Source: Hyphomicrobium nitrativorans NL23 (GTDB taxonomy: Bacteria; Pseudomonadota; Alphaproteobacteria; Rhizobiales; Hyphomicrobiaceae). Taken from it: a stretch of 64,000 nucleotides of DNA. The stretch spans positions 3,413,821-3,477,820 of the forward strand of contig NC_022997.1 in NCBI RefSeq assembly GCF_000503895.1, in the 5' to 3' direction. Position numbers and translations under genes: made by a program. Positions 5,480 through 9,749 of the stretch are shown one piece after another; within the stretch, counting starts at the first letter, position 1, and each line of letters opens with the position of its first letter. The notes beneath the pieces were generated by a model. The model did not search any database. It was not told the DNA's origin and worked only from the letters and a program-made list of their open reading frames with translations.

Positions 5480-6631
5480 TCAAACGCGGCGGAGGTGATT
5501 GTCAAACTCTGTGGACGGGAAACGGGTTTCAAGCGCATTTTCGCCTTCTCGCGCCTCCTCGGTTCTGACGACACCATGGCCCGAACTGATTGCGAAGGCA
5601 CGGGGACCGCTTCCGGCGAGGCCGCAAGCATCCTTCAACGCCACCTCGCGCACGATCTTTCCGGTTTCAGTATCGGTGTAGACGACGCGCCCGGCACGAG
5701 GGGCAGATGCGGCGAGGAGGCGGCCTTCGGCGCAGACCGCCACCGAGCCGATGTATCCGCGCAGCGCGTCTCCCGCCGGACCGCCCGGCTCGATCAACGC
5801 AATCGGACGGTCGAGGCGCGCGCGGCCGATCAGCTCCGGCGCATCCTCGATTGCACCCTGCCATTGCCCGCCGAACCACACCGCACCGCTGGCGTCGACC
5901 ACGAGGTGGCGGATCGAGAGCAGATTGATCTCGGGCGGCAGGCCGTGCTGCGCCTTCAATGCACCCGTCTCCACATCGATGAACGACATGTTCGGCTCCA
6001 TGCCCGCGACGTCGATGCTCTCGCGGCCCGTGACGGGATCGCTGCCGAACCCTCCGTTCGCTGCGACGAGCGTCTTGCCGTCGGGCAACAGGATCGCCTC
6101 GTGCGGGCCGATGCCGTACGAGGGAAATTCGCCGATGCGGCGGAAGCCTTTTCCCGTTTCGTAGACGCCGATGATGCCCTCTCCGGTCTCGACGTCGTGC
6201 TCGGTCATGTAGATCAGCCGCCCATCCGGCGAGAATGCGCCATGGCCGTAGAAATGCCGATCCGGCGGCGGCGCGAACACTTCGGGTTCGGCGCGGCCGT
6301 CAATGTCGAAGCAAAGCGCGAAGTAGCCGGGGCGGCGTGCGCACGCCACAGCACGGCGGCGTGCGCGGTCGATGGCGATGTCGTGCGCGCGGGCAGTGAG
6401 CGGGATCTCGCGCAGGACGCGCCCATCGCCGGTGACGAGAAGCACCGCGTAGCCGTTCCCCTGTCTGCGAGCGGCGGCGGCGTAGACGACGGCTGTGTCG
6501 GCATGGCCTGCCGCACGCGCTTCGGCCGACAGAACGCAGCGCGGCGCAGTGAGGGCGATCAGCGCACCCGCAACAAACCGGCGGCGATCAATCGCCGTCG
6601 AGTTCGTTGAAGCCCAGGATGATGCCGGCAT
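5480..6631 (-). CDS. DUF1513 family protein with Tat-type signal
   Basis: Predicted exported beta-propeller-like protein of the DUF1513 family, usually found beside imelysins and di-heme oxidoreductases in periplasmic iron-related loci; the biochemical role is not established. 383 residues from the ATG at 6631. A twin-arginine stretch DRRRFVAGALIAL near residues 15-27 is followed by a hydrophobic segment and an Ala-rich cleavage region. Repeated strand-forming blades are seen, for example SPDGRLIYMTEHD, IGPHEAILLPDGKTLVAANGG and RHLVVDASGAVWFGGQWQG. Its 5' end overlaps the preceding imelysin gene by 44 nt, which indicates translational coupling. It is the last gene before murE. Confidence 0.82.
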   Translation of the reverse strand: MPASSWASTNSTAIDRRRFVAGALIALTAPRCVLSAEARAAGHADTAVVYAAAARRQGNGYAVLLVTGDGRVLREIPLTARAHDIAIDRARRRAVACARRPGYFALCFDIDGRAEPEVFAPPPDRHFYGHGAFSPDGRLIYMTEHDVETGEGIIGVYETGKGFRRIGEFPSYGIGPHEAILLPDGKTLVAANGGFGSDPVTGRESIDVAGMEPNMSFIDVETGALKAQHGLPPEINLLSIRHLVVDASGAVWFGGQWQGAIEDAPELIGRARLDRPIALIEPGGPAGDALRGYIGSVAVCAEGRLLAASAPRAGRVVYTDTETGKIVREVALKDACGLAGSGPRAFAISSGHGVVRTEEAREGENALETRFPSTEFDNHLRRV

Positions 6632-7739
6632 TGGCCGCGAGCTCCCTGACAACGATTTGGCGAATAGAGGTGATGTCGAAGCGCAGCTTGTTGGCGACGT
6701 GCCTGTGAGCCTTCGAGGCGATGTCTCCGGCCCGGACATCGTCAAGTCTTCGCGACTCTGTCGCGAGCCCGTTCCACCCAGCCGACAAAAATCCGACCAT
6801 CCACGGCTTATCGGGACCGATGCGGGCGGCAAACGCGCACACGTCATAGAGTTCCTTCAGCGCGTCGATTGTCGCGATGACGAAGACGCCCGTCGCATTC
6901 GACCTCTCGAACGGAAGGCGTGCGCGACGGGGAGGATCGCGCGACACGGCATGAAGCTCCGGCAACGCGATGCGGTCGCGCACGAGATCGAAGCCGACGA
7001 CGAGCGCCTTGGCGATCTCGCGGGCCGACTCGGACGTGTCGCGATAGAGGCGGTTCTCCGGTCCGGGATTCAGGATCTTGGCGCGATAGCCGTCTTCGCC
7101 CGCCCAGCCGCTTTGGATTTCTCCGGCAACCGTATCGATGGCCGAGGCTACGGCTCGCGCCATGTCGCAGCGATAACGTGCCGCCTCGTCATTCCCGTTT
7201 CCAAGCGGCTGCTTTTCGCTGAAAAGGAGCGCTTCGAGCGCCGTCAGGCCTTGGACGGCAACGCTTTGCTTGGCGAGCGCGCCGGGCTGCAAAAGCTCCG
7301 GCTTGCGCGCGGCGAGCAGCGTGTTCAACTGCCGCTCTGCGGTGGCGCGAGGGTCGGGCCAGAACAGCACCCGTTCGAGGCGGTGGTTTCGGGCCGAGGG
7401 TCCGAAGCGCACGAAATCGAGCGGCGCCCACGCGCGCACCGTCTCGACGAAGGCGGACTGGGCCACCGCGAGGGCGGCGGGCTTCGCCTCCACCCTGCAC
7501 GCCTCGCCAACCGCTTCGGACAAGACGTTCGCACGCGTCTTGAAAGCGTCGATGCGCGGCAAGATAAATTCGTCCACGGCGTCGCGAACCATCGCCGCCT
7601 GGGTTTTCGGCTGAGGCGCGCTTTCCGCCCAGCTACCCGTTGTGCCAACGAACATCACCGACGCAGCGGCGGCGGCTGCCATCGCTGCTGCTCTTGAGAG
7701 CAGGCCGAAATTCACTCGGAAAGGTCTTCGGGACACCAT
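6588..7739 (-). CDS. Imelysin family protein, second paralogue
   Basis: Predicted periplasmic protein of the imelysin (peptidase M75-like, EfeO/IrpA-related) superfamily, linked to iron acquisition in other bacteria. 383 residues with an N-terminal signal peptide (hydrophobic Ala-rich stretch about residues 14-37, cut near SWAES). This is the divergent class that normally sits next to DUF1513. The usual GxHxxE is replaced by a segment reading RNHRLERVLFWPDP, so any metal site differs from that of the first imelysin at 9.75 kb. It lies 69 bp downstream of the Bfd-like gene and overlaps the DUF1513 gene. Function is inferred from family and context only. Confidence 0.82.
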   Translation of the reverse strand: MVSRRPFRVNFGLLSRAAAMAAAAAASVMFVGTTGSWAESAPQPKTQAAMVRDAVDEFILPRIDAFKTRANVLSEAVGEACRVEAKPAALAVAQSAFVETVRAWAPLDFVRFGPSARNHRLERVLFWPDPRATAERQLNTLLAARKPELLQPGALAKQSVAVQGLTALEALLFSEKQPLGNGNDEAARYRCDMARAVASAIDTVAGEIQSGWAGEDGYRAKILNPGPENRLYRDTSESAREIAKALVVGFDLVRDRIALPELHAVSRDPPRRARLPFERSNATGVFVIATIDALKELYDVCAFAARIGPDKPWMVGFLSAGWNGLATESRRLDDVRAGDIASKAHRHVANKLRFDITSIRQIVVRELAANAGIILGFNELDGD

Positions 7740-7808: not shown

Positions 7809-8135
7809 TCACTCGGCGAGGACGTAATCCTCTTCTTCCGCCGTGAAGGGCACGTTCGCCTTCTGATTGCGGCGCTGCTGCTGCATGCGCATGAGGCGCT
7901 CGCGCGTCGAGAAGCTGCGGTATGGGCAGATGAGGCCCTTCTTCTCCAGCACTTCGAGGCGCGCGTAGATGACGTCGACGGCCAGCGGCGCGCATCCGCA
8001 GCACTGCATGCGCTTTTGCATGTGGCGGTAGACGACGCCGGGCGTCGGGATCGGCGCCTCGGGCTGGTTCAGGATGTCGAGAAGCGCAAGCTCGATGTCG
8101 TGATCGGAGATGCGCGTACAGGAGCAAACGATCAT
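7809..8135 (-). CDS. Bfd-like (2Fe-2S)-binding protein
   Basis: Small cytoplasmic protein with an N-terminal BFD-type [2Fe-2S] domain. In bacterioferritin-associated ferredoxins this domain reduces stored iron for release. 108 residues. The cluster ligands are recognisable as C4-x-C6 and C45-x2-C48 (CCGC), the normal Bfd arrangement. The C-terminal 60 residues (STRERLMRMQQQRRNQ...) are an extension beyond the usual 60-70-residue Bfd. The start at 8135 is supported by a GAGGA ribosome-binding site. The frame extends upstream inside the neighbouring gene, but that part is not Bfd-like. It lies 17 bp downstream of the Cys-helix protein, in the same operon. No bacterioferritin gene is in the window. 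Confidence 0.83.
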   Translation of the reverse strand: MIVCSCTRISDHDIELALLDILNQPEAPIPTPGVVYRHMQKRMQCCGCAPLAVDVIYARLEVLEKKGLICPYRSFSTRERLMRMQQQRRNQKANVPFTAEEEDYVLAE

Positions 8136-8152: not shown

Positions 8153-8674
8153 CTACTGCCTGAGATCGGCCACCGGGGCCGACGCATAGGCTGCGGCATT
8201 CACAATCAGACCCGGCGAGAGCACCTGATCGAGGCCACGCATGGTGACGGCGAAGCTCTCGGCGTGGTGGACGACCTCGTCGATCAGCGAGCTTTCGATC
8301 AGCGCGAAGGCGCAGGCGCGCATCGCAGGGCAGGTGTTGTGCTGGCAGGCCGCGATCATCGACACGGCCAGGCACTCGTCGCGACAGAAGCCCGCGCAGT
8401 CGCCGGCGCACACCTCGATCTCACGGCGGGCCGCAGCGCTGACCGCGCGCACCCAGGCCGAAAGCTCGGACACGGCCGTGCGGGCGGCATTGGCGCCGAG
8501 CGCGCTCGAATAGATGCGCCAGGCTTCTTCCCAGCGGTCGATATCGCCGGATTTATATCCGGCGACCCAGTAGCGGAAGCCGAGGCCGATCAGCCGCTCG
8601 GCGCCACGCTCGCCCGAGAGCGTCTGCAGCGGGGGCGGGGCAATGACGGGGCGCGCGGCACTAGAACGACGCAT
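8153..8674 (-). CDS. Cysteine-rich helical protein of unknown function in iron operon
   Basis: 173 residues, not assigned to a family by me. The mostly helical sequence carries seven cysteines within 33 residues: C89, C93, C97, C101, C110, C115 and C121. The first four are spaced i, i+4, i+8, i+12 (VCAGDCAGFCRDEC), which would put four thiols on one helix face, as in Cys-lined four-helix-bundle metal-storage proteins; this similarity is spacing only. No signal peptide is evident, so a cytoplasmic location is likely. The start has a GGAGG site 6 nt upstream and overlaps the preceding 48-codon gene by 14 nt. It is co-oriented with bfd-like, imelysin and DUF1513 genes, which suggests a role in handling iron or another thiophilic metal. 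Confidence 0.7.
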   Translation of the reverse strand: MRRSSAARPVIAPPPLQTLSGERGAERLIGLGFRYWVAGYKSGDIDRWEEAWRIYSSALGANAARTAVSELSAWVRAVSAAARREIEVCAGDCAGFCRDECLAVSMIAACQHNTCPAMRACAFALIESSLIDEVVHHAESFAVTMRGLDQVLSPGLIVNAAAYASAPVADLRQ

Positions 8675-8807
8675 GAAGGACCTCCCGCATCTGCGACAGG
8701 ACCGGAACGCTCAAGCGACAGGAAGGAAAGGCGAGCCCATAAGGCGGGCATGAGAACGGCACGCAATCCGCGCGCAACACCCAATTGGGGTGCGTTTCGA
8801 GAAGCAT
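8661..8807 (-). CDS. 48-residue cysteine-containing small protein
   Basis: Short frame of 48 codons, from the ATG at 8807 to TAG at 8661-8663. An AGGAAGG ribosome-binding site sits 7 nt before the ATG, an ideal spacing. The stop overlaps the start of the 173-residue gene by 14 nt, the usual sign of translational coupling. The peptide begins MLLETHPNWVLRADC and has three cysteines (C15, C20, C30) in a proline- and aromatic-rich centre (CVPFSCPPYGLAFPSC). It has no signal peptide and no family I recognise. Its context, first gene behind two ICE-like operators, argues for a genuine gene. It could instead be a translated leader that sets expression of the downstream gene. Confidence 0.55.
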   Translation of the reverse strand: MLLETHPNWVLRADCVPFSCPPYGLAFPSCRLSVPVLSQMREVLHASF

Positions 8808-8940
8808 CGTTCGACCTTCCTATTGTCGAGGTTCAAGGCCCCGAAAAGGATATAGGTATGCCGGCTGCTCAAGGGCAGCCTTGCGCGTAAACAAGCCTCT
8901 TTCTCAGGCTGGAGTCAAGGGTGCAGTCGCGCCCTAGCCT

Positions 8941-8979
8941 ATTGGAATCATTCAAATCTTTGTTTTGAAGAGTTCCAAA
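8941..8979. promoter_or_regulatory. Tandem Irr/ICE-like palindromes
   Basis: Two imperfect 17-bp palindromes resemble the iron control element (TTTAGAA-N3-TTCTAAA) bound by Irr in alphaproteobacteria. The first, ATTGGAATCATTCAAAT (8941-8957), matches 10 of 14 defined positions. The second, TTTTGAAGAGTTCCAAA (8963-8979), matches 12 of 14. Their centres are 22 bp apart, about two helical turns, which would put two dimers on the same DNA face. They lie 134-172 bp upstream of the 48-codon gene. Assignment is by motif only; no irr gene is in the window. Confidence 0.5.
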
Positions 8980-8999
8980 GTACAGAAAGCTAAATGCTT

Positions 9000-9500
9000 T
9001 CAGAGCTGCGCTCGGGAGCGACGGGTGGCGGCACCCGAAATTGCGACCGCTTTCGTGCGACGCTGTGTCTTCGGCTTTACAGAACGAGGCGCCTGAGGAC
9101 GCTGCACCTTGAGCATCTGCTCAAGGGTGTGCTCGTCCAATACGCTGATGAACGCATCGAGCGCGTTGTCGAAAAGCTGATCAAGGGCCGCAAGCTGACC
9201 CTGGTTCTCCCCTTCGGCACCGTCTTCCGTCTCCATCTCAAGGCGCAGGATCTCCATCGACCGCACCACGTCGCCGATGCGGATTTCGGCTGCGGGACGG
9301 GCCAAACGGACCCCACCATGGCGGCCGCGTACAGCCTGAATGAAGCCAGCCCGGGAGAGGAGATGAACGATCTTGAACGTGTTCTGGAGCGTGATGTCAC
9401 GCCGCTCGGAGATCTCTGCGACCTTCACAAGTTCGGGCGCGGCTCCGGCGCAATCCAGCAGAATGCGGATGGCATAGTTCGTTGTCTTGCTTAGGCGCAT
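9000..9500 (-). CDS. Rrf2 family transcriptional regulator lacking cluster cysteines
   Basis: Winged-helix DNA-binding protein of the Rrf2 family (RirA, NsrR, IscR relatives), 166 residues. The recognition region is typical: MRLSKTTNYAIRILLDCAG, then ITLQNTFKIVHLLSRAGFIQAVRGRHGG-V-LARP. Family members that sense iron or NO carry three conserved cysteines around residues 90-110. Here the corresponding segment (EILRLEMETEDGAEGEN...LAALDQLFDNALDAF) has none; the only cysteine is C17. The C-terminus is basic (KTQRRTKAV...RRSRAQL). It sits between the two iron-locus arms and is transcribed toward the minus arm, so it is a good candidate local regulator. The sensing mode must differ from RirA or use no cluster. 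Confidence 0.87.
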   Translation of the reverse strand: MRLSKTTNYAIRILLDCAGAAPELVKVAEISERRDITLQNTFKIVHLLSRAGFIQAVRGRHGGVRLARPAAEIRIGDVVRSMEILRLEMETEDGAEGENQGQLAALDQLFDNALDAFISVLDEHTLEQMLKVQRPQAPRSVKPKTQRRTKAVAISGAATRRSRAQL

Positions 9501-9572
9501 GGTCTATCCAGCTCTCCTCCCGTGCGCGCCACCGTTCGCGCGGGTCCGTTTGGTTTTGTATCTCAACAAAAT

Positions 9573-9589
9573 TCTAGATCAATTCCAAA
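9573..9589. promoter_or_regulatory. Irr/ICE-like palindrome upstream of Rrf2 and imelysin genes
   Basis: The minus-strand reading TTTGGAATTGATCTAGA matches 11 of the 14 defined positions of the ICE consensus TTTAGAA-N3-TTCTAAA. It lies 73 bp before the Rrf2 start on one side and 161 bp before the imelysin start on the other, in an AT-rich patch that contrasts with the GC-rich surroundings. It could serve either or both divergent transcripts. Confidence 0.42.
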
Positions 9590-9749
9590 CTACCAAAAAA
9601 TCGCCCGGCGCAGGGAAAAATATTCCCTTGGCCCTTAGGGGCGCCGCCCCGGTTTCTCTACGCGCGGAAATCGGCAATCATTCTTGACTGCTTTCGTAAA
9701 TAAGTCCAGTCGCGTCCGCCCGCTGACCAGATCCCGAGGAGTTCGATCC

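Follow-up and report, generated by a model that had tools for sequence, protein, structure and literature searches.

A candidate RNA hairpin at the translation start of iron genes in Hyphomicrobiales, with short open reading frames as possible relays

The window, by which we mean the whole stretch of 64,000 nucleotides analysed here, comes from a Hyphomicrobium-like genome of 3,653,837 bases on one contig and carries a row of minus-strand genes headed by a 48-codon frame (8661–8807) and a gene for a 173-residue protein (8153–8674; P173), followed by genes for a Bfd-like [2Fe-2S] protein (7809–8135; Pfam Fer2_BFD at E 1.6e-4 and 22.4 bits, under the cut-off of 26), an imelysin (Peptidase_M75; 6588–7739; Pfam E 1.3e-24) and a DUF1513 protein (5480–6847; Pfam E 8.9e-97). 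The last pair of coordinates delimits an open frame, within which the real start probably lies, since the domain begins at residue 149. A second imelysin gene and a gene for a di-haem oxidoreductase lie nearby on the opposite strand. Upstream of the row, also on the minus strand, are a predicted RNA hairpin (8817–8850) and the gene of an Rrf2-family, RirA-like regulator (9000–9500; 96.5 of 193 bits, far under the RirA cut-off). The initial annotation of this DNA had the two leading frames precede and act with iron genes, and their membership in an iron-gene operon is supported; the Bfd-like, imelysin and DUF1513 genes are present behind them on the same strand by Pfam matches, that of the Bfd-like gene being under its cut-off. 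Six named loci (L002–L007) are closest to the window, five of them labelled Hyphomicrobium and L006 labelled only Hyphomicrobiales; their P173 proteins are 79–92% identical to that of the window, and with it they make up the seven close loci.

The 48-codon frame was correctly described at the outset as an ATG frame with AGGAAGG ending 7 nt before the start codon, three cysteines in its product and a 14-nt overlap with the 173-residue frame. Its start and stop positions, including that overlap, are kept in 7/7 close loci, and the reading frame is maintained through changes in length (48 codons in the window, then 50, 48, 41, 38, 38 and 39 in L002–L007). The peptide is unconserved except for a loosely kept start: residue C15 of the window peptide corresponds to A, R, R, R, R and G in L002–L007, codon 14 encodes Cys in all but one of these six and Asp in the window, and the later part, which holds the other two cysteines (spacings CX4C and CX9C), is unalignable across L002–L007. 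No Pfam match was obtained for the window peptide up to E 1. The notion of a conserved small protein thus survives by half, in that relatives keeping the 173-residue gene also keep the frame and do not keep its cysteines. Because the peptide varies while its start and stop positions hold, a relay ORF is suggested rather than a functional peptide. Just past the start of the short ORF, the window (8759–8793) and L002–L007 share two predicted tandem 6-bp hairpins, in which 89% of cells are paired across the seven close loci as against at most 63% when the alignment is slid; covariation beyond that of shuffles was not found there.

P173, which similarity places in 20 loci, is predicted to be all-helical and belongs to no named family. 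Its cysteines C89, C93, C97 and C101, and a further three at C110, C115 and C121, are as originally reported. Their proposed placement along one helix face does not hold, however: the AlphaFold model (AF2, mean pLDDT 86.6) has helices at 61–81 and 98–111 with coil at 82–97, so that C89, C93 and C97 fall in coil, and the series is unconserved, being kept among 36 aligned members in 4 (C89), 16 (C93), 22 (C97) and 18 (C101). A cysteine-ladder protein is rejected on these counts and on the predicted structure. Conservation lies elsewhere, with R34, W36, G39, E100 and A103 invariant in 36/36 members and Q111 (35), D99 (34), H112 (33), C121 (32) and C115 (29) well kept; H112, C115 and C121 may give P173 a binding site for a metal or cluster. 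In copper storage proteins (Csp), conserved cysteines line a four-helix bundle. The counts for C89 to C101 give P173 no such conserved lining, and its comparison with the copper storage protein 5fig reached Z 2.3 over 64 residues, with unrelated rows equally good. Searches of Pfam and NCBIfam returned no Pfam family above cut-off and no NCBIfam family; AWS was matched by the window protein at E 0.038, under the Pfam cut-off, and DUF6628 by one of 21 members at E 0.004, an assignment that we did not adopt. With the model as query, Foldseek found nothing at E≤0.001 and the best match of VIA-align 2, at Z 4.6, was a designed protein, and we therefore assign no fold; a sequence profile searched against the PDB reached only E 0.53. 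Of 397 genomes of the order Hyphomicrobiales, 122 encode P173, as do 16 of 385 genomes sampled across the class, its own genome included, and a search on plasmids gave no match.

The best-conserved feature of the locus is the hairpin, which the initial annotation missed. It was met when the upstream DNA of the seven close loci was aligned, as a block almost free of variation ahead of the short ORF: from UCCUUUU to AGGAAGG it is invariant in L002–L007, the window shows one stem change (C to U, still paired), and the ATG of the short ORF follows the hairpin by 9–10 nt in all seven. A related block stands directly before P173 in L008, L009 and L014, before the gene for a ferric-binding protein in L013 and L016, and elsewhere before other short ORFs. 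The element measures 34–35 nt, lies directly before the ATG of the 48-codon frame in the window, and takes the form UCYRAU, 1–2 nt, five pairs, CCUUGAA, five pairs, 3 nt and AUUGGAG, followed by the start codon; its outer stem (UCYRAU/AUUGGA) can thereby pair the Shine-Dalgarno sequence, which is AUUGGAG generally and AGGA in the window type. The window copy is divergent and has a shorter outer stem, its predicted fold as an isolated element comprising an outer stem UCCU/AGGA, an inner stem of 5–6 bp and the CCUUGAA loop; in the outer stem of this type one pair is altered on both sides, from G-U to U-A. It was matched at 26.6 bits (E 4e-4 over 484 kb) by a covariance model whose training set held neither the window nor L002–L007. 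The isolated fold of the window copy is ordinary (z -0.28), as are those of several other copies.

Pairing in the element was evident in seed copies that had all been matched by a text pattern with no pairing requirement: among these 16 copies (15 distinct), four of the five inner pairs show double changes. Across 70 distinct copies, most of them collected with the structure model, 94.2% of cells pair and seven of 11 pairs change on both sides, with 38 both-side changes where shuffles give 8.8 and slid controls no more than 8. In the loop, U16 and U17 never vary (70/70), variants occur at G18 (to U in 8/70) and A20 (to C in 10/70), the internal-loop columns 7–8 and 26–28 are variable, and one outer-stem pair is G-U in 64/70 copies. 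No Rfam 15 family matched at the hairpin (window 8600–9100 scanned to E 10; L012, L016, L017 and L019 to E 3), the three rows returned by that scan all lying away from it, and no description of such a hairpin was found in the open-access literature by searches some of which were strict in their terms. On these comparisons the hairpin looks like an undescribed RNA family, in the sense of one with neither an Rfam 15 nor a literature match.

For the genome scans a model of 11 copies was used, none of them from the window or L002–L007. At E≤0.01 it detected the hairpin in 114 of 397 genomes of Hyphomicrobiales (100 of these at E≤0.001) and in 52 of the 141 sampled genera of the order; in the class-wide sample of 385 genomes it matched the window's own genome alone at E≤0.001, and 0 of the 384 others. 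A further copy in that genome precedes a gene of FbpA type (L054). In the same genome a strict text pattern had no hits; relaxed, it picked up the window copy and a single site incompatible with the stem. The hairpin tracks P173, which is present in 81 of 114 genomes with the hairpin and in 41 of 283 without it, a contrast inflated by kinship. Those 41, out of 122 P173 genomes, lack a first-model hairpin; a broader model applied to 20 such P173 regions recovered a diverged copy in one and a weak copy in another. P173 is not required for the hairpin to be present.

What lies behind the hairpin was assessed from 119 matches in the fetched loci, of which 14 (duplicates of named loci, near-identical relatives and, inadvertently, the minus copy of L017) were left out. 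The remaining 105 copies come from loci hand-picked for diversity from model matches rather than taken at random, include two loci entered twice and retained (L003/L096 and L013/L099), and collapse to 58 clusters, with 33 copies in one SBP cluster. A first recognised gene follows within 1.8 kb in 103/105 copies: ferric-binding SBP (45), P173 (38), imelysin (9), Bfd-like (5), DUF2325 (2), FTR1 (2), FeoB (1) or a TonB receptor (1). In the other two no iron gene was recognised, and one of these copies lies at the end of a contig. With the caveat that the iron families were partly defined from genes seen downstream, a named iron family lies within 1.2 kb downstream in 82/103 copies as against 7/63 in the divergent direction, all seven of the latter being the window and L002–L007. 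P173 itself appears in the divergent direction in 12/63, mostly as divergent pairs with a hairpin of their own, and 20 of the 38 P173 loci also have a Bfd-like, bacterioferritin or imelysin gene within 1.2 kb downstream. Two SBP representatives match the solved ferric-binding proteins 1y9u and 1q35 and are thus of FbpA/FutA type, the nearest NCBIfam models being phosphonate transporters far under cut-off; Pfam supports the representatives of FeoB, FTR1, Ferritin, Imelysin and TonB plug. Bfd-like proteins were named by similarity to that of the window or to that of L104, and the one in L107 had no Pfam match at E≤1e-5. In L094 and L107 a Bfd-like gene with a GTG start comes after the hairpin, and a gene resembling that of bacterioferritin follows (Pfam Ferritin in L107), which extends the element beyond iron import. 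DUF2325-type proteins are encoded behind the hairpin in L068, L077 and L078, Pfam having been applied to L077, with which the others cluster; in L077 the gene adjoins a P173 gene with its own hairpin. Such a protein is a possible further member of the iron regulon.

Two layouts recur. The hairpin stands directly before the iron gene, with no intervening ORF, in 53/103 copies, or else before a short ORF, unconserved in sequence, that ends across the start of the iron gene. By cluster, an ATG lies 6 nt past the hairpin in 26/56 and 3–10 nt past it in another 21, and nine of 103 copies have no ATG 3–13 nt downstream. With these nine excluded, 41 intervening ORFs could be compared, a set that includes cupredoxin genes of 124 codons in L034 and L038 and a frame of 163 codons in L105. 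Overlap was scored where an ORF ended within -5 to +20 nt of the start of the next recognised gene, with the frame shifted by one or two as a control: 30/41 ORFs qualify as against 1/41 and 5/41 in the control frames, or 23/31 as against 1 and 5 once similar loci are collapsed, and 11/41 end away from the next start. The arrangement of hairpin and short ORF thus extends to other genera with other peptides, often with a 4-nt overlap; apart from the three longer frames, the ORFs run from 20 to 94 codons and have no common sequence. Outside the 41, the hairpin in L108 is accompanied by a frame of 28 codons, not started by ATG, that overlaps a Bfd-like gene by 4 nt. The stop-start pattern points to translation and coupling over independent peptide function, and the 48-codon frame of the window is probably translated and coupled to the 173-residue gene. 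Six loci (L017, L018, L019, L026, L027 and L029) contain two divergent P173 paralogues, each with a hairpin and short ORF; one short ORF of the pair starts like HLTRGAFSG in L017, L018, L027 and L029, and this type of ORF stops short of the gene in L018, L027 and L029.

Control at the level of DNA may also operate here. Between the Rrf2 gene and the hairpin lie two TTTGAAnnnTTCCAA palindromes (8942–8978, neither strand being assigned), at 8942–8956 and 8964–8978 and 7 nt apart; within the window TTTGAAnnnTTCCAA has 4 matches at three places with at most 3 mismatches, as against 0.44 expected, and the TTTGAATGATTCCA of the hairpin-proximal palindrome is kept in six of the seven close loci, L004 differing by one letter. 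The palindromes, which may resemble an Irr box, are possibly an Irr- or Rrf2-type operator, and such an operator would put the operon under transcriptional control as well. A sigma-70 scan of window positions 8640–9700 found no promoter. RirA had no match in the window genome at E≤1e-45, and the idea that the hairpin replaces RirA found no support, since RirA occurs in 16/100 genomes with the hairpin and in 61/297 without (Fisher p 0.2); the hairpin neither follows nor avoids RirA.

We consider it likely that the hairpin in the window is a cis-acting RNA element, one copy of a type by which the translation of iron genes is controlled in Hyphomicrobiales. The conserved, covarying stem able to pair the Shine-Dalgarno sequence is what a cis-regulatory RNA would be expected to have, and the whole leader of the window folds, at minimum energy, with the hairpin absent. 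In L004–L007 the whole-leader folds retain the full hairpin; in L002 and L003 the inner stem is retained and the outer stem lost, and in these two and the window the Shine-Dalgarno of the short ORF is paired elsewhere, which slightly lowers confidence in the RNA-element reading. Further down the seven leaders, the Shine-Dalgarno of P173 has a mean unpaired probability of 0.01–0.34 in GC-rich RNA that pairs readily, and its predicted pairing fits a need for coupling. When closed, the hairpin would hide the Shine-Dalgarno in its outer stem and block ribosome loading. Under iron sufficiency a factor reading the loop would hold it closed; under iron shortage it would open, ribosomes would translate the short ORF, and stop-start coupling would pass translation to the 173-residue gene and the rest of the operon. 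That the iron-dependent factor recognising the apical loop is a protein seems to us to fall a little short of an even chance.

What reads the hairpin may be conceived of in other ways. Activation by a small RNA that frees the Shine-Dalgarno is a known mode, and a conserved small RNA under iron control might pair with the CCUUGAA loop and so open the hairpin; a conserved loop beside a variable internal loop does indicate that recognition is probably apical, but the variants at G18 and A20 would break pairing with a constant small RNA, and we regard this as unlikely. Small riboswitches such as THF-II are also known from alphaproteobacteria, and the layout, sequestering the Shine-Dalgarno, would suit a riboswitch of very small size with iron, haem or another iron-linked metabolite as its direct ligand; such a reading is decidedly unlikely, given that the internal-loop columns vary and that a 7-nt loop with stems offers little for a ligand pocket. 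An inverted repeat close to iron genes, with an Rrf2 gene adjoining in the window, could alternatively be the operator palindrome of an iron repressor at the DNA level. Against an operator stand the fixed asymmetric loop, the prevailing outer-stem G-U, the covarying stem letters, the sense orientation, the short distance to the start codon, the Shine-Dalgarno within the repeat and the divergent P173 pairs with one copy per transcript (L018, L019, L026, L027), and it appears very improbable.

Two further possibilities shift the function from the RNA to the peptide. The initial annotation had envisaged a cysteine micropeptide acting with a cysteine-lined helix protein as a metal-handling pair. 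The iron operon context, the kept C115, C121 and H112 of P173, which may bind something, and the cysteine at codon 14 in most of the closest relatives all speak in its favour; yet the peptide is unconserved, with Asp at that codon in the window and its cysteines unaligned, and the C89–C101 series is likewise unconserved (C89 in 4/36) and partly in coil. The pairing of the two as metal binders is thus unsupported, and we think it very unlikely. It is similarly hard to credit that iron is sensed by the nascent peptide of the short ORF itself, in the way that CruR senses copper, even though a leader ORF heads metal-uptake operons in both cases (PMC9426467) and the HLTRGAF start is common to one clade (L017, L018, L027, L029): the ORFs vary widely in length, lack any sequence common across genera, and are missing from the copies in which the hairpin directly precedes the iron gene.

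Comparison with known systems helps to place the cis-acting RNA that we favour. Bacterial iron regulons are usually explained by the DNA-binding repressors Fur, RirA and Irr. Animal IREs have a CAGUGN loop and a C bulge. Like them, the present hairpin is a short stem-loop placed close to where translation of several iron genes begins, with a conserved loop, in which an IRE-like C1-G5 pair is conceivable; it differs from them in that the loop is CCUUGAA, with both central uridines invariant, and in that it has no C bulge and no known binding protein and overlaps a bacterial Shine-Dalgarno. THF-II (folE) riboswitches, which belong with other small leaders that sequester the Shine-Dalgarno, are also small alphaproteobacterial hairpins that pair this sequence, whereas the hairpin described here has no Rfam match, precedes iron rather than folate genes and has an unconserved internal loop. 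CruR, a DUF2946 protein, is described in PMC9426467 as a copper-responsive upstream ORF heading a metal-uptake operon and acting post-transcriptionally. The small ORF at the head of a metal-uptake operon is common to both, but the window peptide shows neither a Pfam match (DUF2946 included, to E 1) nor CXXC, and is unconserved; what is conserved here is the RNA that precedes the ORF. For Rhodobacter sphaeroides, PMC4344238 predicts that bfd and imelysin are under an Rrf2-family regulator. Control by RirA, Irr or Rrf2 regulators concerns the same kinds of target genes as the hairpin; those regulators bind DNA, whereas the hairpin is a putative RNA element.

A bolder possibility, which we advance as a tentative conjecture with more doubt than confidence, is a bacterial counterpart of IRE/IRP, in which a single RNA-binding protein dedicated to iron sensing recognises the CCUUGAA hairpin in many mRNAs. 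Its target mRNAs would be those of the ferric-binding protein, imelysin, Bfd-bacterioferritin, FTR1, FeoB, the TonB receptor and P173, and an order-wide iron regulon would be run at translation, the short ORFs relaying the decision to the following gene. If the cis-acting reading is true, one hairpin at the start of many iron genes would add a shared translational layer to iron regulons, would constitute an RNA family with no match in Rfam 15 and would give a handle for pulling out the factor that binds it, and unconserved short ORFs before iron genes would be explained as relays rather than as functional peptides.
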